A stretch of DNA of 64,000 nucleotides from Mycobacterium seoulense. Lineage in GTDB: Bacteria; Actinomycetota; Actinomycetes; Mycobacteriales; Mycobacteriaceae. Each line of letters starts with the position of its first letter. The first letter of the stretch is position 1. The stretch covers positions 806,001 to 870,000 of the forward strand of contig NZ_AP022582.1 in the NCBI RefSeq assembly GCF_010731595.1, read 5' to 3'. The notes under the pieces are model-generated. The model ran no database searches. It was given only the letters and a program-made list of their open reading frames with translations, and was not told the DNA's origin. The position numbers and the translations under genes were made by a program. Shown in pieces: positions 58,525 to 64,000 of this stretch.

Positions 58525-58577
58525 CCGGTCGCGTCATTTGCTGGTCGCAACGGGTGGGTGGGGGATACGGTCGGGTG

Positions 58578-59966
58578 ATGAAACGGCTTTCGAGCGTTGA
58601 CGCGGCGTTCTGGTCGGCCGAAACCGCGGGCTGGCACATGCATGTGGGCGCACTGGCGATTTGCGACCCGAACGATTCGCCCGAGTACAGCTTCGAGCGG
58701 CTCCGCGAACTCATCATCGAGCGCCTGCCCGAGCTGCCGCAGCTGCGGTGGCGGGTCACCGGTGCGCCGCTCGGCCTGGACCGGCCGTGGTTCGTCGAAG
58801 ACGAGGAATTGGACATCGACTTCCACATCCGGCACATCGCCGTCCCGTCGCCCGGCGGCCGCCGCGAACTCGAGGAGCTGGTGGGCCGGCTCATGTCCTA
58901 CAAGCTGGACCGTGCCCGGCCGTTGTGGGAGATGTGGGTCATCGAGGGCGTCGAGGGCGGCCGGGTCGCCTCGCTGACCAAGATGCACCACGCCATCGTC
59001 GACGGCGTCTCCGGTGCCGGCCTGGGTGAAATCCTGCTGGACGTCACGCCGGAACCGCGCCCGCCGCAACAGGAAACGGTCGGATCACTGGTGGGCTCGC
59101 GGATTCCGGGCATCGAACGGCGGGCTGTGGGCGCGCTCATCAATGTCGGCGTCAAGACGCCCTTCCGCATCGCGCGGCTCGTGGAGCAGACCGTGCGCCA
59201 GCAGATCGCCGCGCTGGGTGTGAGCGACCGGCCCCCGCGGTACTTCGAAGCGCCCAAGACCCGGTTCAACGCGTCCGTGTCCCCGCATCGGCGGATCACC
59301 GGCTGCCGCGTCGAGCTGGCCCGGGCCAAGGCGGTCAAGGACGCTTACGGCGTCAAGCTCAACGACGTCGTGCTGGCGCTGGTCTCCGGCGCCGCGCGCG
59401 AATACCTGCAGAAGCGAGGCGAGCTGCCCGCCAAACCGCTCATCGCCCAGATCCCCGTCTCCACCCGCACCGACGACGACAAGGACGACGTCGGCAACAA
59501 GGTGAGTTCGATGACCGTGTCGCTGGCCACCGACATCGACGATCCGGCCGAGCGGCTGCGGGCCATCCACGAAAGCACCCAGACCGCCAAGCTGATGGCC
59601 AAGGCATTGTCGGCACACCAGATCATGGGCCTGACCGAGACCACGCCGCCGGGGTTGCTGCAGCTGGCCGCGCGGGCCTACACGGCCAGTGGGCTGTCGC
59701 GAAACCTGGCTCCCATCAACCTGGTTGTCTCCAATGTGCCGGGTCCGCCGTTCCCGTTGTACATGGCCGGCGCCAAACTGGATTCGCTGGTTCCGCTCGG
59801 GCCGCCCGTCATGGACGTCGCCCTGAACATCACCTGCTTCTCCTACACCGACTATCTGGACTTCGGCTTCGTGACGACGCCCGAGGTGGCCAACGACATC
59901 GACGACATGGCCGACCGCATCGAGCCGGCGCTCACCGAGCTCGAGAAGGCGGCCGCGGGGGAGTGA
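58578..59966 (+). CDS. Wax ester synthase / diacylglycerol acyltransferase family (Rv1425-like)
   Basis: 462 residues (459 in Rv1425 as I recall). The catalytic HHxxxDG is present as MHHAIVDG with His137, His138 and Asp142. The start [27 protein letters not shown] and the late [21 protein letters not shown] are WS/DGAT hallmarks. Makes triacylglycerol or wax esters from acyl-CoA at the membrane; mycobacteria have many paralogues. ATG 58578; the open frame begins a little upstream. Confidence 0.93.
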
Positions 59967-60090
59967 GCGGCTCGACCGTCGCGTAGCCGGGACGATCGGC
60001 GGCGGCCGCCGGCTCGGCATTTGCGGGGCAACTCGCGCGAACAGCTATGGGACTTTATGCCCTAGCTGCGCCTCGACGTGTGGCCATAAT

Positions 60091-60104
60091 TAGAACAAGT
60101 TACA
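60091..60104 (+). promoter_or_regulatory. KstR operator upstream of the HsaA-like gene
   Basis: TAGAACAAGTTACA fits the KstR pattern TnnAACnnGTTnnA at every fixed base. KstR is the TetR-family repressor of cholesterol catabolism, released by a cholesterol-derived CoA ester. It lies 103 bases before the start codon in an AT-richer stretch. Confidence 0.8.
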
Positions 60105-60120
60105 GGTCAGCCTTTATGGC

Positions 60121-60132
60121 CGCTGTACAGCG
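60121..60132. promoter_or_regulatory. 12-bp palindrome in the HsaA-like leader
   Basis: CGCTGTACAGCG is a perfect palindrome between the KstR site and the start codon. A second, shorter one (GTTGCAAC, 60157-60164) follows. Either may be an additional operator; no binder is known. Confidence 0.4.
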
Positions 60133-60207
60133 AAAACAACGAAATACTTGACCGATGTTGCAACGTACTCTAGTGAGGTGCTCGGTGCGCACGTCAGGAG
60201 GTAAGCA

Positions 60208-61392
60208 GTGACGTCCCTTCGACACGTTGATGCCCAGTCCGTGTTGGCCGCCATCGACGATCTTCTGCCCAAGCTGCGGCAGCGGGCAGAGGAGACCGAG
60301 GACCTGCGGCGGCTGCCGGACGCCACCGTGAGCGAACTGCAAGAAATCGGCTTCTTCCGGATGCTGCAGCCGGGGCAGTGGGGCGGGATGCAGTGCGACC
60401 CGACGGTGTTCTTCGAGGCCGTCCGGCGCCTGGCCAGTGCGTGCGGGTCCACCGGGTGGGTGGCATCGATCCTCGGCGTGCACAACTGGCACGCGGCGCA
60501 GTTCGACCAGCGGGCCCAACAAGACGTGTGGGGCGAGGACGCCAACGTGCGTATCTCCTCGTCCTACGCCCCGATGGGCGCCGGTCAGGTTGTCGACGAT
60601 GGTTATCTGGTCAACGGCTCGTGGAATTGGTCGTCGGGTTGCGACCACGCCACGTGGACCTTCGTCGGTGGCCCGGTGATCAAGGACGGTCAGCCGGTCG
60701 ACTTCGGCAGCTTCTTGATCCCGAGAGGTGATTACCGCATCGACGACGTCTGGCATGTCGTCGGCCTGAAGGGCACCGGCAGCAACACCCTGGTCGTCAA
60801 GGACGTCTTCGTGCCCCGGCACCGATTCCTGTCCTACCAGTCGATGAACGAGGGCACCGCCCCCGGGCTGGTGGCCAACACCGATCCCGTCTACAAAATG
60901 CCTTGGGGCACTATGCATCCCACCACGATCACCGCCCCCATCGTCGGCATGGCCTACGGCGCCTACGAATCCCACGTCGAGCATCAAGGCAAGCGGGTGC
61001 GCGCGGCGTTCGCCGGCGAGAAGTCCAAAGACGACCCCTTCGCCAAGGTGCGTATCGCCGAGGCGGCCAGCGATATCGACGCCGCGTGGCGACAGCTGAT
61101 GGGCAACGTCGGCGACGAGTACTCGTGTCTGGTGGCGGGCCGCGAGGTCCCGTTCGAGCTGCGGACCCGGGCCCGTCGCGACCAGGTGCGCGCCACCGCT
61201 CGCGCGGTTGCCTCGATCGACCGGTTGTTCGACGCTTCGGGCGCCACCGCGCTGGCCAATAGCGCTCCGATTCAACGATTCTGGCGCGACGCGCACGCCG
61301 GCCGTGTGCACGCCGCCAACGATCCCGAGCGGGCCTACTTGATTTTCGGCAACCACGAATTCGGGCTGCCACCCGCCGACACGATGGTCTAA
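60208..61392 (+). CDS. HsaA-like flavin-dependent monooxygenase oxygenase component (steroid catabolism)
   Basis: 394 residues, the same length as M. tuberculosis HsaA (Rv3570c) and, from memory, highly similar end to end (QSVLAAIDDLLPKLRQRAEETEDLRRLPD, CGSTGWVASILGVHNWH, ISSSYAPMGAG, GSWNWSSGCDHATWTFVGGPV, IFGNHEFGLPPADTMV). HsaA hydroxylates 3-HSA to 3,4-DHSA in steroid ring degradation with reduced flavin from HsaB. No hsaB or hsaC is nearby, so this is probably a paralogue outside the main cholesterol cluster. GTG start with a strong AGGAGG at 60196. Followed by the P450 gene. Confidence 0.9.
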   Translation: MTSLRHVDAQSVLAAIDDLLPKLRQRAEETEDLRRLPDATVSELQEIGFFRMLQPGQWGGMQCDPTVFFEAVRRLASACGSTGWVASILGVHNWHAAQFDQRAQQDVWGEDANVRISSSYAPMGAGQVVDDGYLVNGSWNWSSGCDHATWTFVGGPVIKDGQPVDFGSFLIPRGDYRIDDVWHVVGLKGTGSNTLVVKDVFVPRHRFLSYQSMNEGTAPGLVANTDPVYKMPWGTMHPTTITAPIVGMAYGAYESHVEHQGKRVRAAFAGEKSKDDPFAKVRIAEAASDIDAAWRQLMGNVGDEYSCLVAGREVPFELRTRARRDQVRATARAVASIDRLFDASGATALANSAPIQRFWRDAHAGRVHAANDPERAYLIFGNHEFGLPPADTMV

Positions 61393-61425
61393 TTCACCGA
61401 GGTCTGACTCGCAGAGGAGCCACCG

Positions 61426-62676
61426 ATGACCTGCCCTCACCTTCCGCCCGGCTTCGACCCCACCGACCCGGACATCTACGCCGAGCGCCTTCCCGTCGGG
61501 GAGCTCGCCGAACTTCGCCGCAACGCACCCATTTGGTGGTGTGACCAGCCGATCGGCAAGGGTGGCTTCAACGACGGCGGCTTCTGGGTGGTGACGAAAC
61601 ACAAGGACGTGAGGGAGGTTTCGCTGCGCAACGACGTCTTCTCCAGCTGGCTCAACGGCGCGATTCCGCGCTTCGCCGACGACATGAAGCGGGAAGACAT
61701 CGACCTGCAGCGGTTCGTTCTGCTCAACATGGACCCGCCGCAGCACACGCGGCTGCGCAGGATCATCTCCCGCGGTTTCACGCCGCGCGCGATCGGGCGG
61801 CTCCGCGACCAGCTCAACGAGCGGGCGCAGGCCATCGCCAAGGCGGCCGCCGCCCAGGCTTCCGGCGATTTCGTGGAGCAGGTCGCGTGCGAACTGCCGC
61901 TGCAGGCCATCGCCGGGCTGCTCGGCGTGCCGCAGGAGGACCGCGGCAAGCTGTTCCGGTGGTCCAACGAGATGACCGGCGCCGAGGATCCTGAGTACGC
62001 GGATGTCGATCCCAAGGAGTCATCGGCGGAGGTGCTGGCCTACGCGATGAAGATGGCCGAGGTGAAGACCGAAAACCCCGGCGACGACATCGTTTCCACG
62101 CTGCTCCAGGCGGACATCGACGGCGAGAAGCTCTCCGACGACGAGTTCGGGTTTTTCGTGATGATGCTGGCGGTCGCCGGCAACGAGACCACCCGCAATT
62201 CGATCACCCAGGGCATGATGGCGTTCGCCCACTTTCCCGATCAGTGGGAGCTGTACAAGAAGGAGCGTCCGGAGACCGCGGCGGACGAGATCGTCCGGTG
62301 GGCCACCCCGGTTACCGCATTCCAGCGCACCGCCAAGCAGGACACCGAGCTGTCGGGCGTGACGATCAAGAAGGGCCAGCGGGTGTTGATGTTCTACCGC
62401 TCGGCCAACTTCGACGAGGACGTCTTCGCCGACCCGTTCGCATTCGACATCTTGCGTAACCCCAACCCGCACGTCGGATTTGGCGGCACCGGCGAGCACT
62501 ACTGCATCGGAGCCAACCTGGCCAAGCTGACGATCAACCTCATGTTCAATGCCATCGCGGACCACATGCCCGACCTCACGCCCATCGCGAAACCGGAACG
62601 AATCCGGTCGGGGTGGCTCAACGGCATCAAGCACTGGCAGGTCGACTACACCGGCAAGTGTCCGGTCGCGCACTGA
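61426..62676 (+). CDS. Cytochrome P450, CYP125 family (steroid C26/C27 hydroxylase-like)
   Basis: 416 residues. Very close to M. tuberculosis CYP125A1 (Rv3545c) apart from a shorter N-terminus: DPDIYAERLPVGELAELRRNAPIWW, NMDPPQHTRLRRIISRGFTPRAIGRL, the I-helix AVAGNETTRNSITQG, the ExxR helix, and the heme loop FGGTGEHYCIGANLA with Cys360. CYP125 enzymes oxidise the terminal side-chain carbon of cholesterol/cholestenone. Thirty-three bases after the HsaA-like gene, same strand, so one transcript. Ends seven bases from the convergent Rieske gene. Confidence 0.93.
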   Translation: MTCPHLPPGFDPTDPDIYAERLPVGELAELRRNAPIWWCDQPIGKGGFNDGGFWVVTKHKDVREVSLRNDVFSSWLNGAIPRFADDMKREDIDLQRFVLLNMDPPQHTRLRRIISRGFTPRAIGRLRDQLNERAQAIAKAAAAQASGDFVEQVACELPLQAIAGLLGVPQEDRGKLFRWSNEMTGAEDPEYADVDPKESSAEVLAYAMKMAEVKTENPGDDIVSTLLQADIDGEKLSDDEFGFFVMMLAVAGNETTRNSITQGMMAFAHFPDQWELYKKERPETAADEIVRWATPVTAFQRTAKQDTELSGVTIKKGQRVLMFYRSANFDEDVFADPFAFDILRNPNPHVGFGGTGEHYCIGANLAKLTINLMFNAIADHMPDLTPIAKPERIRSGWLNGIKHWQVDYTGKCPVAH

Positions 62677-62683
62677 CGCCCCG

Positions 62684-63829
62684 CTATTGGGGCTGCTCAA
62701 CCTTGGGCCGCAGATTCTCGTCCACCTCGGCGTGCCAGTGCTTGTTCGCGGCCGTGGTGTCGACCTCGTACTCGAAGCGGTCGGTCATCTGCGGTGTGAC
62801 GTCGGCGGCGTCCGCATAGAACTGCTGATACCAGCGGCGCAGCTGATAGACCGGGCCGTCCTCTTCCACCAGCAACGGGTTTTCGATCCGGGTCTTGTGC
62901 TTCCAGATTTCGACGTCCTGCAAGAAGCCCATGCTGACGCCCTCGGTGAACGCTTCGGACAGTTTCTCGGTGGCGGCCTCGTCCATGCCCTCGGGCTTCC
63001 GCACGATGATGCCCCACTGCAGCATGAAGGAGTTCTGCGTGACGGGGTAGTGGCAGTTGACGAGGATCGATTCCACTTTGTAGCCGCCGTAGCTGTTGTG
63101 CAGCCAGTTGATCATGAACGACGGGCCGAAGTAGGAGGCCTCGGAGTCCAGTGTTTGTTCGCCGGTGTAGTGCGAACCGCCGAGCAGCACATCGGGCCGG
63201 CCGACGGTGCGCAGGTATTGCGAGGCGATATGCCCCTCGAAGACGTTCTTGAAGTACGTCGGGAAGCCGTAGTGGATGTAGAAGAAGTGCGCCATGTCGA
63301 CGATGTTGTCGACGATCTCGCGGCAGTTCGAACCCTCGATGAGCTGACTGCGCCACCGCCAGTCCGTCCACGCGTCGCTGGCGGCCTCGGGAATGTCGGG
63401 GATCTGCAATTCCGGTGATGGCGGGTTGCCCTCGTGGTCGTGCCAGACGAATAGCAGACCGTTGTGCACCTCGGTAGGCCACGACCGGGTGCGCGCCATT
63501 CGGGGTGTGCGCTTGGCATACGGCACCTCTTTGCACCTGCCGTCGCCGCCCCAACGCCAGTCGTGGAACGGGCACGCGACGGTGTCGCCCTTGACCACGC
63601 CCTGCGACAAGTCTCCGCCCATGTGCCGGCAGTACGCGTCGAGCACTCGCAGATTGTGGTCGGTGTCGGCGAAGACGACGAGCTTGGTGCCGAAGATGTT
63701 GACCGGGTGGGGCTTGCCGTCGAGGAAGTCCTGGGCCACGCCCAGGCAGTGCCAGCCGCGAGCGAACCGGGTCGGCAACGTTCCAACGTCGATCTCCCGG
63801 ACGCCGACCCCAGCGGTATCGATACTCAC
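62684..63829 (-). CDS. KshA-like Rieske oxygenase (3-ketosteroid 9-alpha-hydroxylase oxygenase component)
   Basis: 381 residues, strongly similar to M. tuberculosis KshA (Rv3526, 386). Rieske cluster ligands Cys67-x-His69 (YCRHMGGDL) and Cys86-xx-His89 (CPFHDWRWGG). Mononuclear iron site NIVDMAHFFYIHYG with His181 and His186. Hydroxylates C9 of 3-ketosteroids, opening ring B together with KstD, and needs the reductase KshB, which is not encoded here. GTG start (VSIDTAGVG) with GGAGG upstream, 31 bases after a KstR operator. Confidence 0.93.
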   Translation of the reverse strand: MSIDTAGVGVREIDVGTLPTRFARGWHCLGVAQDFLDGKPHPVNIFGTKLVVFADTDHNLRVLDAYCRHMGGDLSQGVVKGDTVACPFHDWRWGGDGRCKEVPYAKRTPRMARTRSWPTEVHNGLLFVWHDHEGNPPSPELQIPDIPEAASDAWTDWRWRSQLIEGSNCREIVDNIVDMAHFFYIHYGFPTYFKNVFEGHIASQYLRTVGRPDVLLGGSHYTGEQTLDSEASYFGPSFMINWLHNSYGGYKVESILVNCHYPVTQNSFMLQWGIIVRKPEGMDEAATEKLSEAFTEGVSMGFLQDVEIWKHKTRIENPLLVEEDGPVYQLRRWYQQFYADAADVTPQMTDRFEYEVDTTAANKHWHAEVDENLRPKVEQPQ

Positions 63830-63860
63830 TTCGCGCCTCCAGTCGCTTACCGCACCGAAC

Positions 63861-63874
63861 TAGAACACGTTATA
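63861..63874 (-). promoter_or_regulatory. KstR operator upstream of the KshA-like gene
   Basis: TAGAACACGTTATA matches TnnAACnnGTTnnA fully. It sits 31 bases before the start codon, where bound repressor would block transcription. Together with 60091-60104 it brackets the three-gene steroid cluster. Confidence 0.82.
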
Positions 63875-64000
63875 GTTTCCGCTCGTCGTCCCGAGAAGAA
63901 TGCAGGCAAAAGCCACTACATATGTGACTTATTGCCCTAGTAGGACGGGGCGTGCTGGATCTCGGCTAGCGGGCGTTGTGTCAATCGGGTTCGTCGTCGT
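63875..64000. other. Right end of window, non-coding as far as visible
   Basis: No gene is visible. It contains GACTTATTGCCCTAG at 63926-63940, nearly the same as GACTTTATGCCCTAG at 60051-60065 upstream of the HsaA-like gene, and the small palindrome ACATATGT at 63918-63925. It may hold the promoter of a plus-strand gene beyond the window. Confidence 0.4.

Follow-up and report, generated by a model that had tools for sequence, protein, structure and literature searches.

Mycobacterial cholesterol breakdown needs molecular oxygen at several steps, and many mycobacteria meet low oxygen. The main mycobacterial cholesterol locus holds kshA (Rv3526), cyp125 (Rv3545c) and hsaACDB, which belong to the KstR regulon. 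Here we describe a small gene set from the same three families in a window of 64,000 nucleotides (positions 806001-870000) of Mycobacterium seoulense (G000), a mycobacterial genome of 5.53 Mb in a single contig. The set, called the module below, consists of hsaA2, cyp125-2 and kshA2, and its operators lie at distances similar to those of the main locus. Unlike the main locus, the module comprises three terminal oxygenases without reductases, sits at another site, forms clades of its own and carries an extra promoter box.

Oxygenase multiplicity has been described before. Several KshA isozymes likewise occur in Rhodococcus and Mycobacterium, with one KshB for several KshAs (PMC4064121, PMC6593523). 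Unlike in those cases, kshA2 is accompanied by paralogues of hsaA and cyp125, with the set under the sterol repressor. M. smegmatis has the paralogues CYP125A3 and CYP125A4 with CYP125A1-like pockets (PMC12429392); here, in contrast, the genome holds four CYP125-like genes, and the module copy shares an operon with hsaA2. The boxes in the module promoters are close to the consensus of the DosR/DevR hypoxia regulon, of which the genes are candidate members. Our search of the literature on CYP125, hsaA, kshA, KstR, M. europaeum and DosR, which left most subscription papers outside, found no report of the gene set and no DosR-controlled kshA, hsaA or sterol oxygenase set. PMC13254585 gave nothing on isozymes.

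The module is an unusual unit built of ordinary parts: known enzyme isozymes, a known sterol repressor, apparent exchange and a conserved second promoter signal. Our preferred reading, held tentatively and at somewhat less than even confidence, is that these are three isozymes of terminal oxygenases in cholesterol catabolism that were exchanged laterally as a set and are controlled by sterols and possibly also by oxygen.

Three oxygenase genes in a convergent module

An earlier reading of the window, the original prediction, had placed three oxygenase paralogues side by side in convergent orientation. This is the arrangement we find, with hsaA2 and cyp125-2 in one operon opposite kshA2:

60208-61392, + strand: hsaA2, 394 amino acids, predicted oxygenase subunit of 3-HSA monooxygenase, first in the operon
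61426-62676, + strand: cyp125-2, 416 amino acids, steroid C26-monooxygenase paralogue, second in the operon
62684-63829, - strand: kshA2, 381 amino acids, predicted 3-ketosteroid 9alpha-hydroxylase oxygenase component, convergent

All three genes are intact. The gap between hsaA2 and cyp125-2 is 33 bp, and 7 bp separate the end of cyp125-2 from kshA2. HsaA2 passes the NCBIfam HsaA equivalog model NF045629 (685 bits against a cut-off of 450), and its best solved relative in the PDB is HsaA 3afe. KshA2 matches Pfam KshA_C (306 bits), also has a Rieske domain, and finds KshA 2zyl as its best PDB match. For CYP125-2 the corresponding matches are Pfam P450 (65 bits) and CYP125 3ivy (E 4e-232). All three proteins can be assigned to their families with confidence. 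As had been proposed, there is no reductase, kstD or ring-cleavage gene among the called neighbour genes.

The module is additional to the main cholesterol locus

Whether the genome also has canonical copies could not be seen from the window. A whole-genome check finds all three, each with an open frame: the main-locus kshA (3664961; 78% identity to kshA2), CYP125 (3681265; 74% identity to cyp125-2) and hsaA (3712819; 82% identity to hsaA2). The module genes are hence paralogues, and relocation of single copies is ruled out because the canonical genes are present in the same genome. Recent duplication of the genome's own genes is ruled out too, by the trees and by a synonymous divergence (dS) of 0.59-0.62 between module and main copies.

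The original prediction had the set borrowing electrons and downstream enzymes from the main pathway. Partners are available for this, since the main pathway encodes reductases and downstream enzymes: HsaB, HsaC, HsaD, KstD, KstR and a steroid thiolase all score above their NCBIfam cut-offs. The kshB candidate, a reductase adjoining the main hsaA, matches FAD/NAD and ferredoxin models at scores below the cut-offs of the models listed. In R. rhodochrous one KshB is reported to be accepted by its five KshAs (PMC4064121).

Among the four CYP125-like genes of the genome, one has an internal stop. This third CYP125-like gene (G000:C1:1620593-1621846) contains one in-frame stop and has KstR-pattern sites nearby, at 1619294 and 1624235; its relatives are intact in some species and broken in others. 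The genome also encodes a KshA of lower identity (60%) about 15 kb from an HsaA-like gene (39%) (G000:C1:1373149-1374237 and 1389224-1390369).

Separate clades and probable lateral exchange

In trees, each module gene falls in a clade apart from the main-locus genes: KshA2 with 11 rows (support 89/86), HsaA2 with 10 rows (100/100) and CYP125-2 with 6 rows (98). The CYP125 tree covers 80 of 117 distinct sequences by a quick method. The HsaA and KshA trees include 13 and 15 chosen database proteins, respectively, out of 120 listed for each (the best 120 of 729 and 3451). The original prediction had called for such trees, and with the exception of the bog_759 hsaA they place the module genes outside the main-locus clades.

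Across the carriers, mean dS against G000 ranges from 0.09 to 0.46 in the flanking genes. Module dS stays at a steady 0.26-0.33, except in G272 (0.18). Four distant carriers (G063, G081, G106 and G307) combine a module dS of 0.28-0.32 with mean flank values of 0.40-0.46, giving module/flank ratios of 0.80, 0.66, 0.75 and 0.64, respectively, each with non-overlapping 95% intervals. For comparison, hsaA and kshA at the main locus of G063 and G081 show a dS of 0.39-0.48. Module divergence below flank divergence in these four carriers indicates lateral exchange. The ratio is 1.02-1.26 in G061, G062, G296 and G075. In G272, the nearest carrier, dS is 0.13 for hsaA2 and cyp125 and 0.29 for kshA2, and this difference suggests that kshA2 alone may have been replaced.

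The ratio of nonsynonymous to synonymous divergence (dN/dS) is 0.08-0.18 for module genes, against 0.01-0.06 for main genes in near pairs (G061, G062, G075). Judged by these ratios, the module genes are functional and under purifying selection, with less constraint than the main copies.

Distribution and insertion site

The module occurs patchily. When 396 genomes of the genus are compared, 13 have a close KshA match (E < 1e-222), with identities of 92-100% in ten and 81-83% in the other three. Close HsaA matches (E < 1e-240) occur in 12 of 396, nine at 90-100% and three at 86-87%; one of the latter three, in G013, lies on the same contig as its main-locus genes. The CYP125 survey covers the best 80 loci, of which four have hsaA and kshA on the same stretch, and for some searches loci are given for part of the matches. 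The simple gene caller missed some genes (for example cyp125 in L274 and kshA2 in L273), which tblastn recovered.

Ten genomes carry the complete set at this locus: G000, M. europaeum, M. sp. 4858 (added from outside the 396-genome matches), E796, E3039, LQPB (labelled M. interjectum), G106, G272, G296 and G307. In M. europaeum and G307 a single flank is visible, as their contigs stop after kshA2 and shortly beyond hsaA2, respectively. An eleventh genome, G243, keeps kshA2 at the site and lacks hsaA2 and cyp125. Two further genomes, bog_759 and G191, have hsaA, cyp125 and kshA at another place in identical order and orientation. In G191 the set is absent from the site described here, and an IS481-type transposase gene lies between cyp125 and kshA of its own set. 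G020 has a tandem kshA-hsaA pair, without cyp125 in the stretch read.

In carriers, the set sits between a WS/DGAT gene and genes that we take, from the M. tuberculosis gene order, to be like lipO, fadD12 and Rv1428; lipO is not called in every carrier. The left border is as follows:

58554-59966, + strand: WS/DGAT gene (Pfam WS_DGAT and synteny), left border of the insertion site, outside the set

In 12 non-carrier regions, one of which (G073) ends just after WS/DGAT, the set is called in none. Among the seven regions resolved at this place, WS/DGAT abuts lipO in three (G191, G006, G079), and four have other genes there (G074, G036, G001, G083). This mixed gene content marks the site as variable. 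Both the variable nature of the site and the DosR-like box described below were missed by the original prediction. Its description of the module as portable agrees with the same set lying elsewhere in bog_759 and G191, with the dS pattern and with the patchy occurrence.

No integrase or transposase is among the named called neighbours of the module; the IS481-type gene occurs only in the set of G191. A plasmid origin was considered but finds no support: in a search of 72,556 plasmid records, no match reaches 80% coverage of the query. To the right of the module, kshA2 is separated from the lipO-like gene by a DUF222 gene, a gene of TetR type and a further P450 (L034 3981-7725, immediately beyond the right end of the window). 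M. nebraskense has a DUF222 gene alone at the place right of the module site.

KstR operators

Both transcription units carry an exact match to the KstR operator pattern, TNNAACNNGTTNNA, as had been predicted:

60091-60104, no strand assigned: KstR-type operator upstream of hsaA2 (TAGAACAAGTTACA, exact pattern), also present in the hsaA2 promoters of other carriers
63861-63874, no strand assigned: KstR-type operator upstream of kshA2 (TAGAACACGTTATA, exact pattern), with 13 of 14 columns invariant in 11 genomes

Across the genome, enrichment of the loose pattern is no more than mild (55 sites against 34 in the control). Its TAGAAC form is enriched more strongly (33 matches on both strands against 8). 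With a matrix built from 12 main-locus KstR sites, the module operators rank first and second in the window. Their positions resemble those at the main locus: -117 for hsaA2 against -122 and -54 for the main hsaA, and -45 for kshA2 against -44 for the main kshA. Sequence features expected of KstR regulon members are hence in place, with operators at both promoters, their conservation in relatives and a KstR encoded in the genome.

A second conserved promoter element

Upstream of the operator, each promoter has a further element that resembles the stringent DosR consensus, GGGACTTNNGNCCCT (PMC6448022). In the kshA2 promoter it adjoins another conserved block:

60049-60064, + strand: DosR-like box in the hsaA2 promoter (GGGACTTTATGCCCTA), one mismatch to the consensus, upstream of the KstR operator
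63924-63938, + strand: DosR-like box in the kshA2 promoter (GTGACTTATTGCCCT), two mismatches, upstream of the KstR operator
63902-63922, no strand assigned: further conserved block in the kshA2 promoter, about 21 bp, adjoining the DosR-like box, 14 of 21 columns invariant in 11 genomes

A single match in the window is weak, so it is conservation that carries the argument for a DosR-like box. In the aligned hsaA2 promoters, 14 of 16 columns of the block GGGACTTTNNGCCCTA are invariant in all ten carriers, compared with 10 of 14 in the KstR operator and 19 of 110 in the remainder. The kshA2 block CTAGGGCCATAAGTCACA has 15 of 18 columns invariant in 11 genomes, and outside the conserved blocks and the operator only 7 of 41 are. 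The hsaA2 box has no mismatch to the consensus in G272 and one in the other nine carriers. For the kshA2-type boxes it is one mismatch in 10 of 14 genes and two in the remaining 4 (window, G062, G081, G272). All of them lie at -99 to -110, including those of the separately placed kshA genes of bog_759, G191 and G020. By comparison, there are 4-5 mismatches in 15 control promoters, taken from main-locus genes in six genomes and from the two further CYP125s of G000.

We also examined 581 upstream regions in stretches of G000. Two are within one mismatch of the motif, one of them hsaA2, and eight are within two. Among the 17 KstR-bearing regions in this set, hsaA2 is the best match, followed at two mismatches by kshA2 and both genes flanking the kstR intergenic region.

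Some DosR-like boxes occur at other genes. A fatty acid desaturase gene (G000:C1:2953434-2954321) has one with one mismatch just upstream of its called start, the sole promoter match at that level in the 400 kb examined for devR. In M. bohemicum DSM 44277 (L044 6601-16726), an additional CYP125 belongs to the wider clade of the module and has a KstR site; nearby are a WS/DGAT gene preceded, at 63 bp, by an exact match to the stringent DosR box, a nitroreductase-family gene and a NorB-type gene. M. genavense ATCC 51234 (L041 8523-15827) also has an extra CYP125 of this wider clade with a KstR site, near genes for a hybrid-cluster (prismane) protein, an FAD/NAD reductase and a CRP-type regulator. 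As box carriers themselves, the two extra CYP125s are weak candidates (3 and 2 mismatches, respectively) and we do not count them.

Active-site residues

In M. tuberculosis CYP125A1, 22 residues lie within 5 Å of cholestenone (PMC12429392). CYP125-2 keeps 19 of these contacts, the main CYP125 keeps 17, and the two other copies of the genome keep 11 and 6. CYP125-2 also retains the heme cysteine, C377. The main CYP125 differs from CYP125A1 by F100W, I104M, D108Q, V111L and K214A, five changes that are common to the main-locus CYP125 of M. scrofulaceum/colombiense-like genomes. One idea was that hosts whose main enzyme has lost a CYP125A1-like pocket regain one through the module. This fits G000, M. 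europaeum, M. sp. 4858 and E3039. It is no rule, because in the carriers G081 and E796 a different CYP125 already has 20 of the 22 contacts.

For KshA, the iron ligands His181, His186 and Asp304 and eight putative ring contacts have been described (PMC4064121). KshA2 has all three ligands and seven of the eight contacts. V176I is found in all 11 module KshA rows compared (including bog_759), while 23 main rows have valine. Where most main copies have the loop GTSY-GEAH, KshA2 has GGSHYTGEQ; YTGEQ is also found in other KshAs. Fixed differences between module and main copies number 16 in KshA, 9 in HsaA and 8 in CYP125.

The conserved iron ligands and contact residues argue for module enzymes that carry out the same reactions as the main copies, with room for a different preference. 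These residues do not show the wider substrate range that the original prediction had suggested.

Discussion

In the proposed mechanism, CYP125-2 would hydroxylate the side chain at C26, KshA2 would perform the 9alpha-hydroxylation that opens ring B, and HsaA2 would perform the 4-hydroxylation of 3-HSA. Both units would be repressed by KstR until a sterol metabolite releases it. Electrons would come from HsaB, KshB and the P450 partners of the main pathway, into which the products would be fed. The DosR-like box may add a response to low oxygen or nitric oxide, and in this way the oxygen-dependent steps would be reinforced when oxygen is scarce.

A further form of this idea is that KstR derepression is joined with DosR/DevR activation into a low-oxygen kit that would keep sterol oxidation going at low oxygen. 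A kshA2-type gene with the dual promoter beside an hsaA paralogue recurs, at the whiA-side site and in G191, bog_759 and G020. In M. tuberculosis, 36 of 51 Dos genes are induced by cholesterol (PMC8196197), which makes a joint sterol and oxygen signal plausible. We regard the kit as possible but doubtful, and mark it down slightly for two reasons: the match in the window is weak when taken by itself, and a 400 kb sample shows no enrichment of the motif.

Several observations weigh against our reading. On the side of exchange, the bog_759 hsaA groups with main-locus-like genes, outside the HsaA2 clade. The flank dS of G081 is uneven, with rapZ (0.28) and uvrC (0.33) near the module values and WS/DGAT (0.57) and lipO (0.45) above them. 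On the side of oxygen control, the DosR motif is a post hoc observation. In bog_759, G191 and G020 the box is absent from the hsaA promoters (4-5 mismatches). The hsaA2 box is the sole match in the window within one mismatch, where 0.30 are expected, and 27 of 100 shuffled windows have at least one. The 400 kb sample has 26 matches within two mismatches against 31 in the control. Genes for devR and devS were not found in 400 kb picked by guessed gene order, with no whole-genome search made.

The alternatives differ in what they make of the enzymes and of the second box. The substrates of the enzymes could be other sterols, bile acids or side chains that are partly degraded, much as the original prediction had it. 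The fixed differences, V176I and the altered KshA2 loop would suit such a role, and KshA homologues with identical ring contacts can differ in preference, which is influenced by an entrance loop that may or may not be the one altered in KshA2 (PMC4064121). We consider a substrate-range module unlikely, as most contacts and all iron ligands are kept and YTGEQ-type loops are not confined to module KshAs. The set could instead provide plain dosage under KstR alone, with the second block being the site of another activator or a part of the promoter without any link to oxygen. The match to the DosR consensus is indeed imperfect, and the hsaA2 mismatch falls where a G-to-T change cut OsdR binding by about 50% (PMC5069765). 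The devR result from the 400 kb also fits dosage. Some kshA2 rows start with TGTGA, a CRP-like half-site. Yet the dyad form fits DosR, most genomes have 0-1 mismatch, GGGACTTTNNGCCCTA occurs in 32 of 301 loci compared and every time at hsaA2, and the WS/DGAT gene of M. bohemicum has its exact stringent match. Dosage without oxygen control thus seems rather improbable to us.

Finally, the genes could be spare copies that drift towards loss as passengers of a variable site. The higher dN/dS of the module, which reflects faster protein change, and the loss of hsaA2 and cyp125 in G243 point that way. Open frames in the carriers examined, purifying selection and conserved promoters make drift very improbable. 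The exchanged, sterol-controlled isozyme set, possibly under oxygen control as well, thus stays our preferred reading. Patchy occurrence, different places and divergence out of step with the flanks, uneven as flank dS is, are what horizontal exchange would leave behind.

If this reading is true, parts of a catabolic pathway would spread between mycobacteria as small units. If dual control by sterols and hypoxia is true, the upkeep of sterol catabolism at low oxygen would become directly testable. The module also offers natural variants of KshA, CYP125 and HsaA for steroid biotechnology.

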